In this document: one piece after another, positions 996 to 11,332 of the stretch
Numbering within the stretch: the stretch's first letter is position 1
Layout of the letters: each line of letters opens with the position of its first letter
Assembly: GCA_014380815.1 (NCBI GenBank)
Contig: JACMJB010000313.1
Location: forward strand, 1 to 34,220
DNA from: Armatimonadota bacterium
Lineage (GTDB): Bacteria > Armatimonadota > Armatimonadia > Armatimonadales > Armatimonadaceae
Reading direction: 5' to 3'
Length of the DNA: 34,220 nucleotides
Program-made: the position numbers and the translations under genes
Notes under the pieces: generated by a model
What the model was told of the DNA's origin: nothing
Seen by the model: the letters and a program-made list of their open reading frames with translations, nothing else
Database searches by the model: none

Positions 996-3131
996 ATGAA
1001 TAAAGCCAAGCTGCTCGCAGGCAGCGCCGCTACGGCATTCGTAGCGGTGGCATCCGTCTCTCCTGCATTCGCGCAGGCCAGCGGACCGTTTGCCGATGTG
1101 CCGACGGACCACTGGGCCTACCAGTCGGTGGATAAGCTACAGAAGGGCGGAATCGTCATCGGCTATCCCGATGGCACTTATGGCGGCAAGCGCGCCATGA
1201 CCCGCTATGAGTTCGCGGTCGCCATCGCCCGCCTGCTGGAGAAGATCCCCCAGCCCGACCTCACCAACTACTACACGAAGGCAGAGACCGACGCGGCAAT
1301 CCAGGCCGCGACCGCTGGCTTCGCGACAAAGGAAGAAGTCCAGGCGCTTCGCAACCTGGTGAACGAGTTCCAGACCGAACTTACCACCCTTGGCGTAGAC
1401 CTGGAAGCGGTCAAGAAGCGGCTTACCGCACTTGAAGGCCGTGTGACCGCACTCGAAGACGAAGTAAAGCGCGTCAAGGTGTACGGTACGGTCAGCCTGA
1501 ACGGCCGCGCCACCAACACCCGCACCAATAGCGTGAACTTCCGCGACCAGGATGGTTTCATCATCCAGCGCGGCAGCACGACCCCCGGCAACCAGCTTGT
1601 CGGCAACGGCAACCTGCTGGGTGCGACCCGTATCCTGCATGACATTGACCTTGGGGTGAAGGCTCGTCTTTCCGATACCGCCACTGCGGATGTCCTTCTG
1701 AACTTCGGCAACTACCTTAGCTTCCTGGGCGGGGTCGGTTCGTACGCGAACTTCCCGAACGGGCGCACGGCTTCGACCGGCGGCGGCTTCGGCAACCAGG
1801 ATCAGACCCAGACGGTGTATAAGGCGGTCATTGAGGCTCCGTTCCGTCTGCCCGGCATTGGCGGCGTCACCGCGACCGTCGGTCGTGTTCCGCTTCAGTT
1901 CACCCCCTACACCCTCAAGCTGATTGACGTTGACCAGTACTTCTACAACGACAAGACCGACCTGGGTAACATCCCGATTGACGGTGGCAAGCTTGCGTTC
2001 AACATCGGACCGCTGGGAATCACGGGTATCGCTGGTAAGACCGACCCGATCCGCTTCCTCAGCAACATCGCCAGCAACCTGACCGGGGACAACTCGGCGG
2101 GCCTGTTTGCGGGAGCCAGCCGCGGCGCCTACTCCGGCATCAACGGCACGGGTGGCTTTTCCACCTCGGGTCGTCCGTCGGGCAACCGGCTGCAGAACAA
2201 CGGCGGTATCCTCGTCGAGCAGCTTGCGGGTGCTCGCGTCGTGTTCGGAACCTCCAAGTTCGGCACCATCGGTGGCACCTATCTGGCCCTTGCGGGTCAG
2301 CGGCCCGGCTCGATTCCCGGAACCTCGACCCTGAATCCGCTGGCGTTCGGCGTTAACCCCGCCAACCCCAGCACCTTTGGGGAAGGTAGCTCCTTCGACC
2401 GCGCGAACATCAACCGGGTCTACGTATATGGCGCGGACGTCAATGCAAGCATCGGCAGCATTGGGATCAACGCTTCGTACACCAAGTCGGATACGGCGGG
2501 TTCCCGGATCACCGGTATCAGCGCGCTGAACGACGGCACGTTCGTCACCTCCTTTGACCAGGAGACCACAAGCAAGATCAACGACGACAACGAGGCGTAT
2601 GAGGCGGGCGCGAGCTACTCCATCGGCGCGCTCAGTCTTGGCGCTGGCTACCGATACGTCGGTCCCTACTTCGCGGCCCCCGGTTCCTGGTCGCGGGTCG
2701 GTACCCTGACAAACCCGGTGGACATCGAGGGTGGTTATGGCCGCATCGGTTATGCCATTGCTCGCGGACTGTCCCTGAACGCGGAAGCCCAGTTCTACAA
2801 CGGTACGGGTGAAGCGGTCAACGACGGTGGCCTTTCCGAGGACGACCGGATCAACAACTACCGCGGCGGGCTGAAGTTTGGTCTTACTTCCGCCTCCAAC
2901 GTTGATCTGGGCGTAGACTACACCGAGTACAAGATCGGCGTGGGCGCGTTCGCTGGCAGCAAGCCCCGTGAGATCTTCTACAACATCGGTTACGGCTACT
3001 CGTTCAGCCCGAACTCCTCGTTCAAGCTGCTGTATCAGATCGTTGACTTCGACGATAAGAACACCGGCTTCGATCCGTCGGGTGCGGGCAAGGGTGGCGT
3101 CGCCGCCGCGCAGTTCCAGGTTAAGTTCTAA
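996..3131 (+). CDS. SLH-domain outer-membrane porin
   Basis: This is a 711-residue envelope protein. An N-terminal signal peptide ends near SPAFAQA (about residue 27). One S-layer homology domain follows (about 31-90, with FADVPTDHWAY and GYPDGTYGG), then a coiled-coil stretch (about 115-165, heptads around LTALEGRVTALEDEV). The rest is a Gly/Asn/Tyr-rich beta-barrel ending in VKF, with the C-terminal Phe typical of outer-membrane proteins. This matches the OmpM/SlpA/SomA class, in which the SLH domain binds peptidoglycan-linked polymer and the barrel forms an outer-membrane pore. GGAGG at 981-985 sits 10 nt before ATG 996 and fixes the start. It is monocistronic, with a long leader and its own terminator, as expected for an abundant protein. 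The substrate is unknown. Confidence 0.93.
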   Translation: MNKAKLLAGSAATAFVAVASVSPAFAQASGPFADVPTDHWAYQSVDKLQKGGIVIGYPDGTYGGKRAMTRYEFAVAIARLLEKIPQPDLTNYYTKAETDAAIQAATAGFATKEEVQALRNLVNEFQTELTTLGVDLEAVKKRLTALEGRVTALEDEVKRVKVYGTVSLNGRATNTRTNSVNFRDQDGFIIQRGSTTPGNQLVGNGNLLGATRILHDIDLGVKARLSDTATADVLLNFGNYLSFLGGVGSYANFPNGRTASTGGGFGNQDQTQTVYKAVIEAPFRLPGIGGVTATVGRVPLQFTPYTLKLIDVDQYFYNDKTDLGNIPIDGGKLAFNIGPLGITGIAGKTDPIRFLSNIASNLTGDNSAGLFAGASRGAYSGINGTGGFSTSGRPSGNRLQNNGGILVEQLAGARVVFGTSKFGTIGGTYLALAGQRPGSIPGTSTLNPLAFGVNPANPSTFGEGSSFDRANINRVYVYGADVNASIGSIGINASYTKSDTAGSRITGISALNDGTFVTSFDQETTSKINDDNEAYEAGASYSIGALSLGAGYRYVGPYFAAPGSWSRVGTLTNPVDIEGGYGRIGYAIARGLSLNAEAQFYNGTGEAVNDGGLSEDDRINNYRGGLKFGLTSASNVDLGVDYTEYKIGVGAFAGSKPREIFYNIGYGYSFSPNSSFKLLYQIVDFDDKNTGFDPSGAGKGGVAAAQFQVKF

Positions 3132-4605: not shown

Positions 4606-5163
4606 ATGGATACAAGCGATTTCCGCAACGGTCTTTCCATTATATACGACAACGACATCTGGACGATCGTTGATTTTCAGCACGTCAAGCCCGGGAAGGG
4701 TGGAGCATTTGTTCGTTCTAAGCTGAAAAATCTGCGGACCGGTTCCACTGTGGACAAGACCTGGCGAGCGGGCGAAAAGATGGATCAGGCTATCCTGGAG
4801 CGCAAGCCCATGCGGTACCTCTATAATCAGGACGATGAGTACTACCTGATGGATATGGATACGTTCGAGCAGACCACGGTCCCGCAGTCAAAGATCGGAT
4901 CTCAGTCGAAATATTTGAAGGAAGACACCGATGTTCAGGTCGTATCCCACAGGGAAGAGATCATCGGGGTCAGTGTTGGGGACTTCGCCGAACTCGAGAT
5001 CGTCGAAACCGACCCGGGCGTTCGTGGCGACACCGCGTCTGGAGGATCGAAGCCGGCGACACTTGCCGGTGGGGCCGTGATTCAAGTCCCCTTCTTTGTC
5101 AACGTCGGCGATAAGGTCAAAGTCGACACTCGCACCGACACCTATCTGGAACGCGTGAAGTAG
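4606..5163 (+). CDS. efp: Translation elongation factor P
   Basis: EF-P (185 aa, the usual length) binds between the ribosomal P and E sites and relieves stalling at polyproline. The N-terminal KOW-like domain carries the tip loop HVKPGKGGAF with Lys31 at the position modified in other bacteria. The OB domains follow, ending FFVNVGDKVKVDTRTDTYLERV. No epmA, epmB or ymfI-type modification gene is in the window, so the state of Lys31 cannot be inferred. GGAG at 4590-4593 is 12 nt before the ATG. It is the first gene of the forward run. An efp-accB-accC linkage is classical. Confidence 0.97.
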   Translation: MDTSDFRNGLSIIYDNDIWTIVDFQHVKPGKGGAFVRSKLKNLRTGSTVDKTWRAGEKMDQAILERKPMRYLYNQDDEYYLMDMDTFEQTTVPQSKIGSQSKYLKEDTDVQVVSHREEIIGVSVGDFAELEIVETDPGVRGDTASGGSKPATLAGGAVIQVPFFVNVGDKVKVDTRTDTYLERVK

Positions 5164-5269
5164 AGGGGCCAATCGGCGCCGGGTCTTATCTCGTATCGGA
5201 TCTCTGGATTGCCGCTCCGAGGCGGCGTTGTCAGCGCGGTTTGGTTCGGTGGGAGGAGATCAGTCTGCG

Positions 5270-6547
5270 ATGGAAATGGAACCTGAGGAAGAGACGCTTT
5301 TAAGCCGTGCGGAACGCTCGTTTCTCGGCCCCCTGGTTTACAATATCATTGTGCTGGCAATGAACATCGGTTTCGCGGTCGCGTTCCTTTCCGCCGTTTA
5401 TCTGATCTATGGCCTGTTTTCAGGCAACCTGTCCGACTATTCCACGCTGGCCCAAGGCGACCGAGCGCGCATCTTGTCCAATCTTCGCTTGGCTACGCAG
5501 GCGATGACCGCCGGTCTTGGTGTCGGTTCGCTTGCCGCAGCCTACGTTTTCTGGGGCGAGGAATTCGTCGGGTACGGAATGTTGGTTGGGGGAATGCTGA
5601 TCGGTCTTGGCATTCCCCAGATCTACACGATGGTGGGAGGGGGGCAGGCCAGTACCAAGGCCACCGCGCTGGCGCTGGGAGCGTTTCCCGGGGCAATGAT
5701 GGCGCCGCTGGTCATCGGCGGCGTGCTCGTGGCGCGGGATGTGGTCTATCGCCTGATCCGTGGCTTTCAGGAAAAGCCTGTCCGCGTCGAAAAAATGACC
5801 TATGGCACGGGGGCTGCCGCGGAGTCACGCCCCATCCGGACCTCGCTGCTCGCCAAATGCTGGGAAGGGCCATATTGCCGGGAGTTTATTCGGGTTCACT
5901 GCCCGATCTTCCAGAAGCGACAGGCCTGCTGGCGAGAAAAGCGTGGGTGCTACTGCGAAGAGGATATCGTCAGTACGGCGGCCTCCAAGGTGTCCGGTAT
6001 CGCCCTGGAGATGGCTCCCGACCCGAAGCTGAACTTCGCCAACCCCTCTTCCCCGGCGGCGGCGGCGAACGACCCATTGAACCGCGCCCCCGGCCTTCAG
6101 CTGGGGACACTGGGCGGTTCACCGGGGGGGCGCGTCGAAGGGGGTATTGGTGCGGGGCTTGGTGGTGGGCTGAACTTTGGGGCACCCCCACCGCGCAAAG
6201 TCACACTCTCGATGTCCCAGAAGAAAGAGCGCTGCCGGAACTGCGTGATCTATAACGAGCATCAGCGAGAAAAATACAAGCTGCTGATGCCGGTCACTTT
6301 GTTAGGGACGCTCGCGTTTTGCGCGGTCTTCGCGACCCCGCTGCGGCAGGGTATCAACGCGGCGACGACAGCGATTGACCGGTTACTGGGGCAGATCTCG
6401 TTTAACCCGGCGGGAGCGGCTCCCGCCGTGAACCTTGGACAGCCCTCGGAGACGGTGGCCTGGTTCCTGGTCGTTGCACTGAGCATTATGATCGTCTCAA
6501 AAGCACTGCAGATGTTGGAATGGGCAATATTCAAAATCAAGATTTGA
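5270..6547 (+). CDS. Cys-rich multi-pass membrane protein, unknown function
   Basis: This protein of about 425 aa is not assigned to any family I know. The acidic N-terminus is followed by hydrophobic segments at about 22-48, 79-95, 101-125 and 142-156. A soluble region then carries six Cys (197, 203, 211, 220, 227, 229: CWEGPYC, then CYCEE). A Gly/Pro/Ala-rich linker, a second CRNC pair and two further hydrophobic segments near the C-terminus complete it. The eight Cys suggest a metal or Fe-S site or a disulphide-stabilised domain. GGAGGA at 5252-5257 supports ATG 5270; an in-frame TTG at 5228 is possible but lies upstream of that site. The 3' end overlaps accB by 28 nt, so the two are probably translationally coupled. 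It occupies the efp-accB gap, where Firmicutes carry spoIIIAA-AH. Confidence 0.85.
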   Translation: MEMEPEEETLLSRAERSFLGPLVYNIIVLAMNIGFAVAFLSAVYLIYGLFSGNLSDYSTLAQGDRARILSNLRLATQAMTAGLGVGSLAAAYVFWGEEFVGYGMLVGGMLIGLGIPQIYTMVGGGQASTKATALALGAFPGAMMAPLVIGGVLVARDVVYRLIRGFQEKPVRVEKMTYGTGAAAESRPIRTSLLAKCWEGPYCREFIRVHCPIFQKRQACWREKRGCYCEEDIVSTAASKVSGIALEMAPDPKLNFANPSSPAAAANDPLNRAPGLQLGTLGGSPGGRVEGGIGAGLGGGLNFGAPPPRKVTLSMSQKKERCRNCVIYNEHQREKYKLLMPVTLLGTLAFCAVFATPLRQGINAATTAIDRLLGQISFNPAGAAPAVNLGQPSETVAWFLVVALSIMIVSKALQMLEWAIFKIKI

Positions 6548-7062
6548 ACCAGGATCTGAACTTGGTCGAAGCGTCTCGGAGCGTCCCTGCGCCGGAGTTT
6601 CCATTGAACTATGAAAAAATCGAGGCGTTCGCGGCTCTGCTGCGCGACTCTCCCACGCTTACCGAAATCGAAGTGAAGAACGGGGAGGGTGTTTCTCTGC
6701 GTCTGCGCCGCGCCGCGCCCAAGCCCCCCAGTCGGTCCGCCGCTCCCCTTGTTGCCGGTGAACCAGAGGCGTTGAGGGCGGCGCCCGTCCCTGTTGCGGG
6801 AAGCGGCGAGCTGTCAAAGGCAGGTACCACTGCACTGACGGCCACCGTAGTCGGTATCTTTCGGGTCATGGGCGGGGCAGCGACACTGACGGTCGGTGAC
6901 CCGGTGAAAGCCGGGCAAGTGATGGGCCAGATCGAGGCGATGCGGCTTCTGAATGACTGCATTTCCCCTCTCTCCGGCGTGGTGACTGCTGCCGCCGTGG
7001 AAGAGGGTCAGCCGGTTGAGTATGGACAACTGCTTTTTGAGATCAAGGCATCAGGCGAGTAA
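6520..7062 (+). CDS. accB: AccB-like biotinyl-domain protein lacking the biotinyl lysine
   Basis: By order and sequence this is the biotin carboxyl carrier protein of acetyl-CoA carboxylase (180 aa). The N-terminal helical/LxR segment is LTEIEVKNGEGVSLRLRR (about 47-64), then comes a Pro/Ala linker, then the lipoyl/biotinyl fold (about 104-178, VGDPVKAGQVMGQIEAM and SGVVTAAAVEEGQPVEYGQ). The canonical biotinylation motif is EAMKM or EAMKL. Here it reads EAMRLLND, and codon 142 is CGG (6943-6945), so Arg replaces the acceptor Lys. The flanking fold residues are conserved, so the gene does not look decayed. It probably cannot carry biotin at the normal site. It may be a regulatory or structural subunit, or a true BCCP may be encoded elsewhere. 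Confidence 0.85.
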   Translation: MGNIQNQDLNQDLNLVEASRSVPAPEFPLNYEKIEAFAALLRDSPTLTEIEVKNGEGVSLRLRRAAPKPPSRSAAPLVAGEPEALRAAPVPVAGSGELSKAGTTALTATVVGIFRVMGGAATLTVGDPVKAGQVMGQIEAMRLLNDCISPLSGVVTAAAVEEGQPVEYGQLLFEIKASGE

Positions 7063-7064
7063 AA

Positions 7065-7514
7065 ATGGCATCTACACGATCAAACGAACGTCAACTTCGC
7101 CCCGCGGGCTTTGGACTGATCGAACTTCTGGTGGTGATCGTCATCATCGGGATTCTCGCGGCGGTTCTGATTCCGAGCCTGACCGGGGGCGGTAAAGACG
7201 CCAATGGGAAGCGGACGCTCTCTCCCAAGGAGCGTGCCAAGGCGGTCGGCACGACGGAATACATCGGGCAGATCAACCAGGCGATTCAGATGTACCGAAT
7301 GGACAATGAGGACCGAAATCCCGGGTCGCTCGCGGAGCTGAAGGCATACGGGGTGTTGGAGGAGATGCTGGTGGATCAGGTTACCAAGCAGCCGCTTCCT
7401 TACGACCCCGCTACGGGGCGGGTCGGTAACACCAACGGCCCCGACAGCCTAGGCGGCGTTCGGGGGGGGAAACTGCCCGTATTCGAAAGCGGCAGCGAGA
7501 GCGGAGTCCGCTGA
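7065..7514 (+). CDS. Type IV pilin / GspG-like prepilin
   Basis: A 149-residue protein with a class III prepilin leader: a 15-residue basic leader, then the processing site G|FGLIELLVVIVIIG with Glu5 of the mature protein. A single hydrophobic N-terminal helix follows (IELLVVIVIIGILAAVLIP). The C-terminal part has a GspG-like layout (YIGQINQAIQMYRMDNED, then PGSLAEL and YDPATG). A PilD-type peptidase would cleave and N-methylate it, and it would assemble into a pilus or pseudopilus. It starts 2 nt after accB and precedes accC, an unusual position. PilT in this window is a plausible partner. Confidence 0.9.
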   Translation: MASTRSNERQLRPAGFGLIELLVVIVIIGILAAVLIPSLTGGGKDANGKRTLSPKERAKAVGTTEYIGQINQAIQMYRMDNEDRNPGSLAELKAYGVLEEMLVDQVTKQPLPYDPATGRVGNTNGPDSLGGVRGGKLPVFESGSESGVR

Positions 7515-7599: not shown

Positions 7600-8961
7600 T
7601 TGTTCAAAAAAATACTCATTGCCAACCGCGGCGAGATCGCGGTTCGGATCATTCGTGCCTGCCGGGAGATGGGTATCGCGACGGTCGCGGTCTATTCGCA
7701 GGCCGATGCAAACTCGCTCTCGGTTCAGCTTGCGGACGAATCGGTTTGTGTTGGCCCTGGCCCCGGCAAAGACTCCTACCTCAACGTCGCGAACATCGTC
7801 TCCGCCGCTCTAATCACCGGTGCGGAAGCGATCCACCCCGGCTATGGTTTTCTCTCCGAAGTCGCCTCGTTTGCGGAGATCTGCGCCGCGGTCGGGATCA
7901 AGTTCATCGGTCCCTCTGTGGATGCCATCGAGCGCATGGGCGATAAAGCTACCGCGCGCGCCACTGCGAAAAAGGCCGGTGTCCCCACGGTCCCCGGTTC
8001 AGAAGGCATCCTGGCAACCGAGGCAGATGCGATCCGGACCGCGCACAAGATCGGTTATCCCGTCGTGGTGAAGGCAACCGCGGGCGGCGGCGGTCGCGGG
8101 ATCCGCGTCGTTGAGGACGAGGATGAGTTGGCCCGCGTGTTCAAAATGGCACAGGCGGAGGCAGCGGCCTCATTCGGGAATGCCGACGTGTATCTGGAAA
8201 AATACATCCGGCGGATGCGCCACATCGAGGTTCAGATCCTGGGCGACGAGCACGGAAACTGTCTTCATTTGGGGGAGCGAGAGTGCTCGGTGCAGACCGT
8301 GCGCCACCAGAAAGTCGTCGAGGAAGCACCGTCCGCGAGCCTTTCCCCTGGTATGCGAAAGCGTATCGGGGAATCCGCGGTTAAGGCGGCGAAGGCGGTC
8401 GGATACGCGAATGCGGGAACGGTCGAGTTTATCTACACCCCCGAAGAAGAGTTCTACTTCATGGAGATGAACACCCGAATCCAGGTAGAGCATCCGGTGA
8501 CGGAAGCGGTGACCGGCATTGATCTGGTTCAGTGGCAGATCCGCATTGCGGCGGGGGAACGGCTTTCGTTTCAGCAGCGCAGCATCGAGTGGACCGGACA
8601 CTCGATCGAGTGCCGGGTCACTGCCCAGGACCCGAACCGTGGGTTTGCCCCGGCAGCGGGCACACTGACCACGGTCCGGCTTCCCGGTGGCCTGGGCGTG
8701 CGCGTGGATACCCAGATCTATAGCGGCTACACGGTGCCACCCTTTTACGACTCGAATCTGGCCAAGGTGATTGTCTGGGCACCGGACCGGCTGCAGGCGA
8801 TTCAGCGAATGCGCTGCGCGCTGGGCGAACTGGTGATTGAGGGGAGTCCGACGAATGTATCCTTTCTGCAGCGGATTCTGTCCGACGATCGCTACCTCGC
8901 CAATGAGATTTCGACCGCCTTTTTGCCTAAACTGATGGAAGAAGCGGGGCTGACGATTTGA
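7600..8961 (+). CDS. accC: Acetyl-CoA carboxylase biotin carboxylase subunit
   Basis: This ATP-grasp enzyme carboxylates biotin on BCCP, the first half-reaction of malonyl-CoA synthesis. The N-terminus FKKILIANRGEIAVRI is canonical, so I place the start at TTG 7600 (453 aa, the normal length). An in-frame upstream TTG at 7543 would add 19 residues without homology. The glycine-rich ATP loop is GGGGRGIRVV. Catalytic segments HQKVVEEAPS and MNTRIQVEHPVTE are intact. No clear Shine-Dalgarno sequence is visible. The enzyme looks fully active, in contrast to the adjacent AccB, which lacks its acceptor Lys, so its carrier partner is probably encoded elsewhere. accA and accD are not in the window. 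Confidence 0.97.
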   Translation: MFKKILIANRGEIAVRIIRACREMGIATVAVYSQADANSLSVQLADESVCVGPGPGKDSYLNVANIVSAALITGAEAIHPGYGFLSEVASFAEICAAVGIKFIGPSVDAIERMGDKATARATAKKAGVPTVPGSEGILATEADAIRTAHKIGYPVVVKATAGGGGRGIRVVEDEDELARVFKMAQAEAAASFGNADVYLEKYIRRMRHIEVQILGDEHGNCLHLGERECSVQTVRHQKVVEEAPSASLSPGMRKRIGESAVKAAKAVGYANAGTVEFIYTPEEEFYFMEMNTRIQVEHPVTEAVTGIDLVQWQIRIAAGERLSFQQRSIEWTGHSIECRVTAQDPNRGFAPAAGTLTTVRLPGGLGVRVDTQIYSGYTVPPFYDSNLAKVIVWAPDRLQAIQRMRCALGELVIEGSPTNVSFLQRILSDDRYLANEISTAFLPKLMEEAGLTI

Positions 8962-9049: not shown

Positions 9050-9544
9050 ATGATGAAGGCTACACCCTCGACGCGGCGCGCTGCCCGTGAAACCGCTTTG
9101 CGTGTTCTTTATACGGTGGATGTCGGTAAACAGCCGGTCGAGGAGGTGCTGGAAGAGACCCTCGAGGCCAACGAACTGGATGAAAAAGGGATCGCATTCA
9201 CCCGCTCCCTGGTCGCTGGCACACTGCGCAGTCAGAAAGAGATTGACAGCCAGATTGACCGGATCGCAGTAGGATTTCCCACGGTCCGGCAGACAGCGGT
9301 GGATCGTAACATCCTGCGCCTAGCCGCGGCGGAGATCCTGTTTCGCGTCTCGGATGCGCCGCCGGGCGCCGTCGTCAACGAAGCCGTGGAACTGGCGAAA
9401 AAGTACTCCACTGCGGAATCGGGCCGTTTTGTGAACGGCGTTCTTGGAACGCTGGTTCGCGAGGTTGAGGCCCAGAGCGGTCCTGTGGAAGGCGGCGCCG
9501 CAGAGAATAGCGGGGAGAGTAGCGAGGACACGACGCTTGACTGA
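9050..9544 (+). CDS. nusB: Transcription antitermination factor NusB
   Basis: NusB (164 aa) pairs with NusE (ribosomal protein S10) on boxA RNA during rRNA transcription. The all-helical fold is clear: RRAARETALRVLYTVD at the start, then DRNILRLAAAEILF and VVNEAVELAKKYSTAESGRF, then VNGVLGTLVRE. A Ser/Glu/Gly-rich tail of about 25 residues follows the conserved domain. ATG 9050 is chosen; ATG 9053 immediately after is an alternative. The last 8 nt overlap the folD start. The accC-nusB-folD order is the common bacterial one. Confidence 0.96.
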   Translation: MMKATPSTRRAARETALRVLYTVDVGKQPVEEVLEETLEANELDEKGIAFTRSLVAGTLRSQKEIDSQIDRIAVGFPTVRQTAVDRNILRLAAAEILFRVSDAPPGAVVNEAVELAKKYSTAESGRFVNGVLGTLVREVEAQSGPVEGGAAENSGESSEDTTLD

Positions 9545-10421
9545 AACTCCCCTGCTGCTGGATGGCACCGCGACCGCCAGGGTTATTCGTGCTGAGGTCG
9601 AGGCTCGTGTCCGTCATCTCAAAGAGGTTTATGGCGTCACGCCTGGCCTGGCCGCCGTGCTTGCGGGAGACAATCCTGCCTCGGTCACCTATGTGCGGAT
9701 GAAACGCCGTGCCTGTGAGAAGGCCGGCATTACCTCCACAGCCCGCGAGTTCGGTTCGGACGCAACCCAGGAGCAGATACTGGAAGCCGTCCACGAACTG
9801 AATGCGGACCGAGGGGTCCATGGGGTCCTGGTCCAGCATCCGTTGCCGAAGGGCCTGGACGAGTCCGAGGTGCTGGCGGCGGTGGACCCAAACAAGGACG
9901 TAGACGGGATCGGTCGCGGCAGCCTGGGCGACCTCGTCAAGGGAGAAGCGGTGTTTGTGGCCTGCACCCCCGCAGGAATGGTGGAACTACTTGACCGGTA
10001 CCGCTTGCCGATCGAGGGCAAGCACGCGGTTGTGATCGGGCGCTCCGTGATCCTGGGGAAACCGATGGCGCTGCTGCTTCTGAACCGAAATGCCACGGTC
10101 ACCATCTGCCATTCGAAGACCCACAACCTGGCGGAGATCACCCGTCAGGCGGACATTCTGGTGGCGGCGGTCGGACGAGCCGAGATGGTGACCGGAGACA
10201 TGCTGAAGCCCGGCGCGGTCGTGCTGGATGCCGGGTACAATCGAGTTCCCGGGCGGGACCAGGATGTGGGCGACTGTGACTACGAAAGCTGCTCCCGGGT
10301 TGCCTCCGCGATCACGCCCGTCCCCGGCGGCGTCGGCCCGATGACAATCGCGGTCCTTCTAGCCAATACGGTCACCGCTGCCGAGCGCCGGGTTGGGTTC
10401 GGAAAGCCAGGCGCCGGGTAA
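9537..10421 (+). CDS. folD: Bifunctional methylene-THF dehydrogenase / methenyl-THF cyclohydrolase
   Basis: FolD (294 aa) interconverts 5,10-methylene-THF and 10-formyl-THF with NADP. Conserved blocks are VTYVRMKRRACEKAGI (Tyr and Lys of the cyclohydrolase site), VLVQHPLPKG, PNKDVDGI, CTPAGMVELL, the Rossmann stretch VVIGRSVILGKPMALLLL, and TPVPGGVGPMTIAVLLANT. The start is TTG 9537: GAGGA at 9524-9528 lies 8 nt upstream, and the N-terminus MTETPLLLDG fits the family. The frame extends further upstream inside nusB, but that part has no homology. It overlaps nusB by 8 nt and ispA by 1 nt (TAATG), so the three are coupled. Confidence 0.96.
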   Translation: MTETPLLLDGTATARVIRAEVEARVRHLKEVYGVTPGLAAVLAGDNPASVTYVRMKRRACEKAGITSTAREFGSDATQEQILEAVHELNADRGVHGVLVQHPLPKGLDESEVLAAVDPNKDVDGIGRGSLGDLVKGEAVFVACTPAGMVELLDRYRLPIEGKHAVVIGRSVILGKPMALLLLNRNATVTICHSKTHNLAEITRQADILVAAVGRAEMVTGDMLKPGAVVLDAGYNRVPGRDQDVGDCDYESCSRVASAITPVPGGVGPMTIAVLLANTVTAAERRVGFGKPGAG

Positions 10422-11332
10422 TGTCCGCTTCCATTACTGCCCCTGATTTTGATTTCAGCCGCTATGTGCGAGACCGGGCGCGTCTCGTGAATGATGCCCT
10501 GGATCGTTACACCCCGACCGACAGTGTTCATCCCACGGTGCTGCATGCGGCGATGCGGTATTCGCTCTTTGCGGGCGGCAAGCGGATTCGCCCCCTGCTT
10601 TGCATCGCGAGCGCCGAGGCCCTGGGGGGAACCACGGAAGACGTGCTCCCGACCGCCTGCGCACTGGAGATGGTCCACACCTTCTCCCTCATCCACGATG
10701 ATCTGCCGGCGATTGATGACGATGATTACCGGCGCGGCCTGCTGACCTCCCACAAGAAGTTCGGCGAAGCGATTGCCATCTTGGCGGGCGATGCCCTGCA
10801 CACCCTTGCGTTCACGACGATTGCGATGCATCAGCAGGCCGCCCAGCCCACGGTCATCATCGAGGTGATCCGGCGTCTTGCGCTGGCCTCGGGGACGCTG
10901 GGAATGGTTGGCGGGCAGGTAGACGACATCGCGAGTGAAGGCAAGGCGATCTCCGCGGAGGTTCTGCGCTCGATCCATGCCCGCAAGACCGGCGCGCTCC
11001 TGAATGCGGCGATCGAGACCGGCGCCCTGCTAGCGAACGCTTCCGAGGCGGACCTGGTCTCGCTGCAGCGATTCGGGGAACAGGTGGGATTGGCGTTTCA
11101 GATCGTGGACGATATTCTGGATGTCACCAGTGACGACGCCACGCTGGGCAAACCGACCGGTTCCGACGAAAAAAACGACAAAGCGACGTACCCGAAGCTG
11201 TTTGGGCTGGAAGCCTCCATCGGCTTTGCCCGGGAGGCCTCGGATGCCGCCATCGCGGCGATCCGCTCCTTTGGACCCGCCGCGGAGCCGTTACGCTGTT
11301 TCGCCCGCTTTATCGTGGACCGGGAAAAGTAG
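10421..11332 (+). CDS. ispA: Polyprenyl (farnesyl/geranylgeranyl) diphosphate synthase
   Basis: This is a short-chain trans-prenyl diphosphate synthase of 303 aa that condenses IPP with allylic diphosphates. It shows GGKRIRPLL (about 52-60), the first Asp-rich motif in HDDLPAIDDDDYRRG (about 92-106) and the second in VDDILD (about 229-234) followed by TLGKPTGSDE. The two-residue insertion in the first Asp-rich motif is typical of bacterial IspA and GGPPS types. Product length cannot be read with certainty. Its ATG shares one base with the folD stop. The xseA/xseB and dxs genes often found here are absent; rnpB follows instead. Confidence 0.94.
   Translation: MSASITAPDFDFSRYVRDRARLVNDALDRYTPTDSVHPTVLHAAMRYSLFAGGKRIRPLLCIASAEALGGTTEDVLPTACALEMVHTFSLIHDDLPAIDDDDYRRGLLTSHKKFGEAIAILAGDALHTLAFTTIAMHQQAAQPTVIIEVIRRLALASGTLGMVGGQVDDIASEGKAISAEVLRSIHARKTGALLNAAIETGALLANASEADLVSLQRFGEQVGLAFQIVDDILDVTSDDATLGKPTGSDEKNDKATYPKLFGLEASIGFAREASDAAIAAIRSFGPAAEPLRCFARFIVDREK

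Follow-up and report, generated by a model that had tools for sequence, protein, structure and literature searches.

In plants, the heteromeric acetyl-CoA carboxylase (ACC) has, alongside its true BCCP, a second BCCP relative (about 25-30% identity) named BADC, which lacks the AMKL motif and binds both BC and BCCP (PMC11926652). Such non-catalytic relatives of BCCP have been described as exclusive to the plant enzyme (PMC11926652), and their role is disputed: one group regards BADC as a glue for assembly, while others regard it as an inhibitor (PMC11926652, PMC7712654). In Escherichia coli (E. coli), the thumb of AccB was reported to be essential (Cronan 2001, as cited in PMC11926652), and in a published model the AccB thumb contacts BirA (PMC10863985). 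Here, we analysed a 34,220-nucleotide stretch of DNA from an Armatimonadota bacterium, hereafter referred to as the window, which encodes an AccB-like protein, accB-B, that cannot carry biotin because its biotinyl lysine is replaced. This protein is probably a non-catalytic, non-biotinylated subunit of ACC, a reading for which there are no binding or activity data. In the open-access literature, to which our search was confined, no prior report was found of bacterial BADC-like proteins, of BCCP or ACC from Armatimonadetes, or of two AccBs in Chloroflexi; this absence is no proof of novelty.

The AccB-like protein of the window and its genome

Around accB-B, the genes follow the order efp, ORF 5228-6547, accB-B, a pilin-like gene, accC, nusB, folD and a prenyl synthase gene (Table 1). 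This order is the old efp-accB-accC-nusB-folD-ispA neighbourhood, known for example from Bacillus subtilis, and because of this neighbourhood the lysine-less protein is the positional accB. An earlier, sequence-only reading of this DNA had placed accB directly beside accC, but the pilin-like gene intervenes. The same reading took accC to be intact, which agrees with its match to TIGR00514 (686.8 bits, above cut-off). ORF 5228-6547 (439 aa), located between efp and accB-B, overlaps the start of accB-B and has no match in Pfam or NCBIfam. Elsewhere in the window, a 711-aa protein (996-3131) matches the iron uptake porin model NF033921 with 65 bits, the cut-off being 100.

Table 1 Features of the accB-B locus, in window coordinates.
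Feature	Position	Strand	Remarks
efp, elongation factor P	4606-5163	+	marker of the old efp-accB-accC-nusB-folD neighbourhood
accB-B, AccB-like protein without biotinyl lysine	6520-7062	+	180 aa
N-terminal AccB module (helix and beta hairpin)	6604-6711	+	residues 29-64, kept
Biotinyl (barrel-sandwich) domain	6826-7050	+	residues 103-177; thumb segment down to 19 residues
Biotin-acceptor site	6943-6945	+	codon 142, CGG (Arg), EAMRL motif
Pilin-like membrane-anchored protein gene	7065-7514	+	between accB-B and accC
accC, biotin carboxylase	7600-8961	+	TTG start at 7600 inferred; mechanical ORF from 7543
nusB	9050-9544	+	same neighbourhood as efp
folD ORF	9444-10421	+	same neighbourhood; homology starts at ORF residue 37
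Prenyl synthase	10421-11332		after folD

The translation of accB-B contains GQIEAMRLLNDCISP. As the sequence-only reading had noted, the EAMRL motif has Arg; to become AAG its codon would need two base changes, and to become AAA three. The window comes from an assembly of 495 contigs, which speaks for a sequencing or assembly error; however, two base changes would be needed, and the relatives of the same family (f1) carry R, H or G at the site and never Lys, which already refutes such an error. A pseudogene is opposed by the intact frame and by purifying selection, and both possibilities can be set aside with near certainty.

The protein matches the BCCP model TIGR00531 with an E value of 1.8e-16 and 61 bits, below the cut-off of 115.2, and the Pfam model Biotin_lipoyl with 41.2 bits, above the cut-off of that model. 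The lysine-bearing paralogue of the same genome, on contig C230, also scores under the TIGR00531 cut-off (97.4 bits), and this cut-off does not discriminate lysine-less from lysine-bearing AccB in this genome. A family profile matched 4hr7_B with an E value of 4.7e-23. The AlphaFold model of accB-B has a mean pLDDT of 78 overall and of about 90 or more over residues 101-180, and its best match in the PDB is 1bdo, the E. coli biotinyl domain. The biotinyl fold, which had been described as well conserved, is thus mostly so by the model and the match to 1bdo, except for the thumb hairpin: this is shortened to the 19-residue segment IFRVMGGAATLTVGDPVKA, compared with 22 residues in all A-type proteins (defined below), and its Tyr/Pro residues are gone.

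The assembly of the window genome comprises 4.2 Mb in 495 contigs and is 91% complete; our genome-wide statements derive from sequence searches of this assembly. The AccB profile gave two high-scoring matches only, the EAMRL protein of the window and an EAMKV protein on contig C230, which share 28% identity. Furthermore, there is one AccA (ACCA), one match to the biotin carboxylase C-domain, which is the accC of the window, and one match to the biotin/lipoyl ligase family. The sequence-only reading had allowed for a true BCCP elsewhere in the genome, and the C230 protein fits this, together with a single biotin ligase. The only AccC found is therefore encoded with an AccB unable to carry biotin, while the gene for the one evident biotin acceptor lies on another contig. 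Like accB-B, the C230 protein is a full-length AccB with N-terminal and biotinyl domains; it differs in having Lys and a 22-residue thumb, in lacking the VEYGQ ending, and in being unlinked to accC.

Two AccB types in Armatimonadota and Chloroflexota

The window genome and 60 relatives, from 25 families of Armatimonadota, yielded 51 A-type AccBs, which are unlinked to accC, and 56 B-type AccBs, which lie upstream of accC. Many of these come from metagenome bins, and all of the data are sequences. Two accC-linked proteins with Lys (L108 and L111) were left out, since they belong to a different type of carboxylase, which has a biotin carboxylase of its own upstream. Most genomes that seemingly missed one paralogue have both by a more sensitive profile search. 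The apparent single AccB of some genomes stemmed from P0001 as the query, and the profile recovered the other paralogue in every such genome with a completeness of at least 92%; after it, G010 (90% complete) still has one AccB and G053 (87%) none.

The biotin site is Lys in all 51 A-type proteins. In the B type, 40 of 56 lack it; across all 56, the site is Gly (20), Lys (16), Arg (12), Thr (3), His (2), and Asp, Ser and Asn (1 each). Arg is fixed neither in family f1 nor in this wider set; it is not special, and the residue varies freely. The site holds 4.32 bits of information in A and only 2.09 in B. The N-terminal module, by contrast, is conserved nearly equally, with 2.15 bits per column in A and 2.04 in B. 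The thumb segment has 22 residues in every A-type protein and a median of 17 in B, including most of the B proteins with Lys. The 16 Lys-bearing B proteins could be biotinylated, and in some of them the motif around the residue (ESMKL or EAMKV) is a plausible one. In three divergent B proteins (L062, L063 and L109, with LALGI, FALGI and AALGL), the Glu of the motif is gone too, which suggests that the whole presumed recognition site for biotin ligase was freed from constraint.

Pairs of B genes have dN/dS values of 0.06-0.27, similar to those of A, and on this ground B is a working gene under purifying selection and not a decaying one. A recent defect, which relatives with Lys and decay elsewhere in the gene would have indicated, is accordingly not what we see in family f1.

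The tree of Armatimonadota AccBs was made with the motif columns excluded. It places 50 A-type rows together with a support of 97/99, and a single clade of all 51 is not rejected (p-AU 0.58). In a combined tree, the A-types of both Armatimonadota and Chloroflexota group together (SH-aLRT 96), with B unresolved among canonical AccBs. At least 10 changes between Lys and non-Lys are required, which rules out a single loss of lysine. An old pair of AccB paralogues exists in both phyla. Whether B derives from one duplication is not resolved by the trees, the B side being weakly supported, and transfer between the two phyla is not excluded. The simplest account is that an old extra AccB (A) would have taken over the carrying of biotin, after which the original accB (B) would have been free to lose its lysine repeatedly.

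Two AccBs occur in 28 of the Chloroflexota genomes, and each of these combines one protein with Lys and one with G, N, Q, R or D at the site; in every case, the VEYGQ-type ending belongs to the Lys-less protein. Genomes with a single AccB have Lys in 13 of 15 cases, ten of them in the VEYGQ-type protein. The operon of L277 (1-9044) reads accD-accA-B-fabD-accC-fabZ-fabF-A-fabH, with a lysine-less B and a lysine-bearing A, so that both types are encoded together with the whole ACC; both types are also found with accC in L262. At most loci in this phylum, the roughly 1.5-2 kb around B show no accC. Among the named loci, canonical AccBs of other phyla have Lys in 75 of 75 cases, and the exceptions without Lys are two from Armatimonadota and four from Chloroflexota; these four (Ktedonobacter robiniae, Ktedonospora formicarum, Thermogemmatispora and a MAG) carry Asn. 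Cyanobacteriota gave an AccB match in 50 of 59 genomes, exactly one in each of the 50, and 14 genomes from other phyla have one good AccB apiece, with weak second matches in three. As far as the sampled genomes go, the arrangement of a Lys-bearing and a Lys-less AccB spans Armatimonadota and Chloroflexota.

B could also be a relic, kept for operon structure or for a weak residual function, with constraint relaxed once A had taken over. The many losses of lysine and the strong divergence of several B proteins are in line with this, which we nevertheless consider improbable: the dN/dS values are comparable with those of A, the N-terminal module and the VEYGQ ending are conserved, and B is retained in both phyla.

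The pilin-like gene and the proposed role of B

A short pilin-like gene is located between B and accC in 50 of the 52 Armatimonadota loci that hold both, and it adjoins B in four further loci without a captured accC. No such gene was found at the Chloroflexota loci or next to A. The homologues (loci L009-L114) have a prepilin-like helix at the N-terminus in most lineages, and a lipoprotein-signal-like N-terminus in L040, L053, L054, L066 and L068. Their C-terminal domain, of about 65 residues, often ends with CPV..PYxYDPxTGxVxCPHPGHE; a scan of eight members gave no match to a Pfam family. Since the conserved portion of the protein is expected outside the cytoplasm, a role in tethering ACC to the membrane, by analogy with plant CTI, was not adopted. 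The presence of an extracytoplasmic membrane protein inside the accBC cluster, throughout the phylum Armatimonadota, is unexplained.

The retention of this gene between B and accC would suit a B protein that has left ACC for another function, such as a role with the adjoining pilin-like protein or autoregulation of the acc operon. E. coli AccB is reported to regulate its own operon, which provides a precedent. However, B retains the whole AccB architecture, it occurs with accA, accD and accC in some Chloroflexota, whose loci showed no pilin-like gene, and what is conserved in the pilin-like protein should be on the far side of the membrane from the cytoplasm. We regard such a departure from ACC as doubtful.

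The sequence-only reading had left two options, a non-biotinylated regulatory subunit of ACC or a protein recruited to another job. The lack of biotinylation in accB-B is supported by our results; between the two options, we favour the ACC subunit on two grounds: the gene is clustered with the single accC of the genome, and its product retains the N-terminal AccB module. This choice is an inference. The comparisons above show that A keeps its biotinyl lysine, together with a full-length thumb in the case of Armatimonadota. They also show that B occupies the ancestral accBC site in Armatimonadota or, in some Chloroflexota, an operon for fatty-acid synthesis that includes accA, accD and accC; B has lost its lysine several times over, as well as the thumb in most Armatimonadota, yet is still under purifying selection. 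On the best reading, B, which is the accB by position in the old efp-accB-accC-nusB-folD cluster, has become a BADC-like, non-catalytic ACC subunit. It would still bind AccC, A or both through its N-terminal module, occupy a share of the AccB positions within the BC-BCCP complex, and help to assemble the enzyme or set its activity, and A alone would carry CO2 on biotin; all of these steps are inferred.

A sub-case that overlaps with this non-catalytic subunit is the competing model for plant BADC, in which B would be an inhibitory decoy that replaces biotinylated AccB on AccC and throttles malonyl-CoA synthesis. B is encoded beside the only AccC, it cannot carry biotin, and some groups read the plant precedent in this manner, but constant co-encoding with AccC and retention across the phylum suit a standing subunit at least equally, and we think a decoy unlikely. 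We lean towards a permanent structural ("glue") role and away from a switchable inhibitor, since B is encoded in one cluster with the sole AccC and persists across the phylum, although sequence cannot separate the two roles.

The broader proposal is that ACC in Armatimonadota and many Chloroflexota has two AccB subunits, one biotinylated and one never, as an independent counterpart of BADC, and that Armatimonadota add a membrane-anchored protein whose gene lies between those of the two subunits; we see this as evenly poised between right and wrong. If it is true, two bacterial phyla with repeated loss of the lysine represent an independent natural experiment on this division of labour, and simple bacterial proteins become available for the question of assembly versus inhibition. 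Moreover, annotation by operon position would misname the biotin carrier in Armatimonadota and Chloroflexota.

Comparison with canonical AccB and plant BADC

Compared with canonical AccB/BCCP (TIGR00531; E. coli 4hr7 and 1bdo), the window protein has the same N-terminal module, biotinyl fold, gene neighbourhood and GQPVEYGQ-type ending. It differs in that the biotin-accepting lysine of EAMK is Arg, the shortened thumb hairpin is without its Tyr/Pro residues, and its 61 bits fall below the TIGR00531 cut-off, as does the score of the lysine-bearing paralogue.

Three features of BADC are shared, while binding to BC and BCCP and an effect on ACC assembly or activity are suggested by no more than the gene neighbourhood and the retained N-terminal module. 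The window protein is homologous to BCCP; it lacks the biotinylated lysine motif, as do the 40 lysine-less B proteins; and it coexists with a BCCP, which is the EAMKV protein here and an A-type protein in most genomes, biotinylation itself not having been demonstrated. An independent origin of B and BADC is favoured because the sampled Cyanobacteriota have no second AccB; no plant sequences were compared. Like BADC1-3 of the plant heteromeric ACC, B is a BCCP homologue without the biotinylation motif beside a true BCCP, to which it has 28% identity in the window genome. Unlike BADC1-3, B is bacterial and occupies the ancestral accBC position, its site residue varies widely, with Lys still present in some B proteins, and the thumb has been lost in most Armatimonadota.
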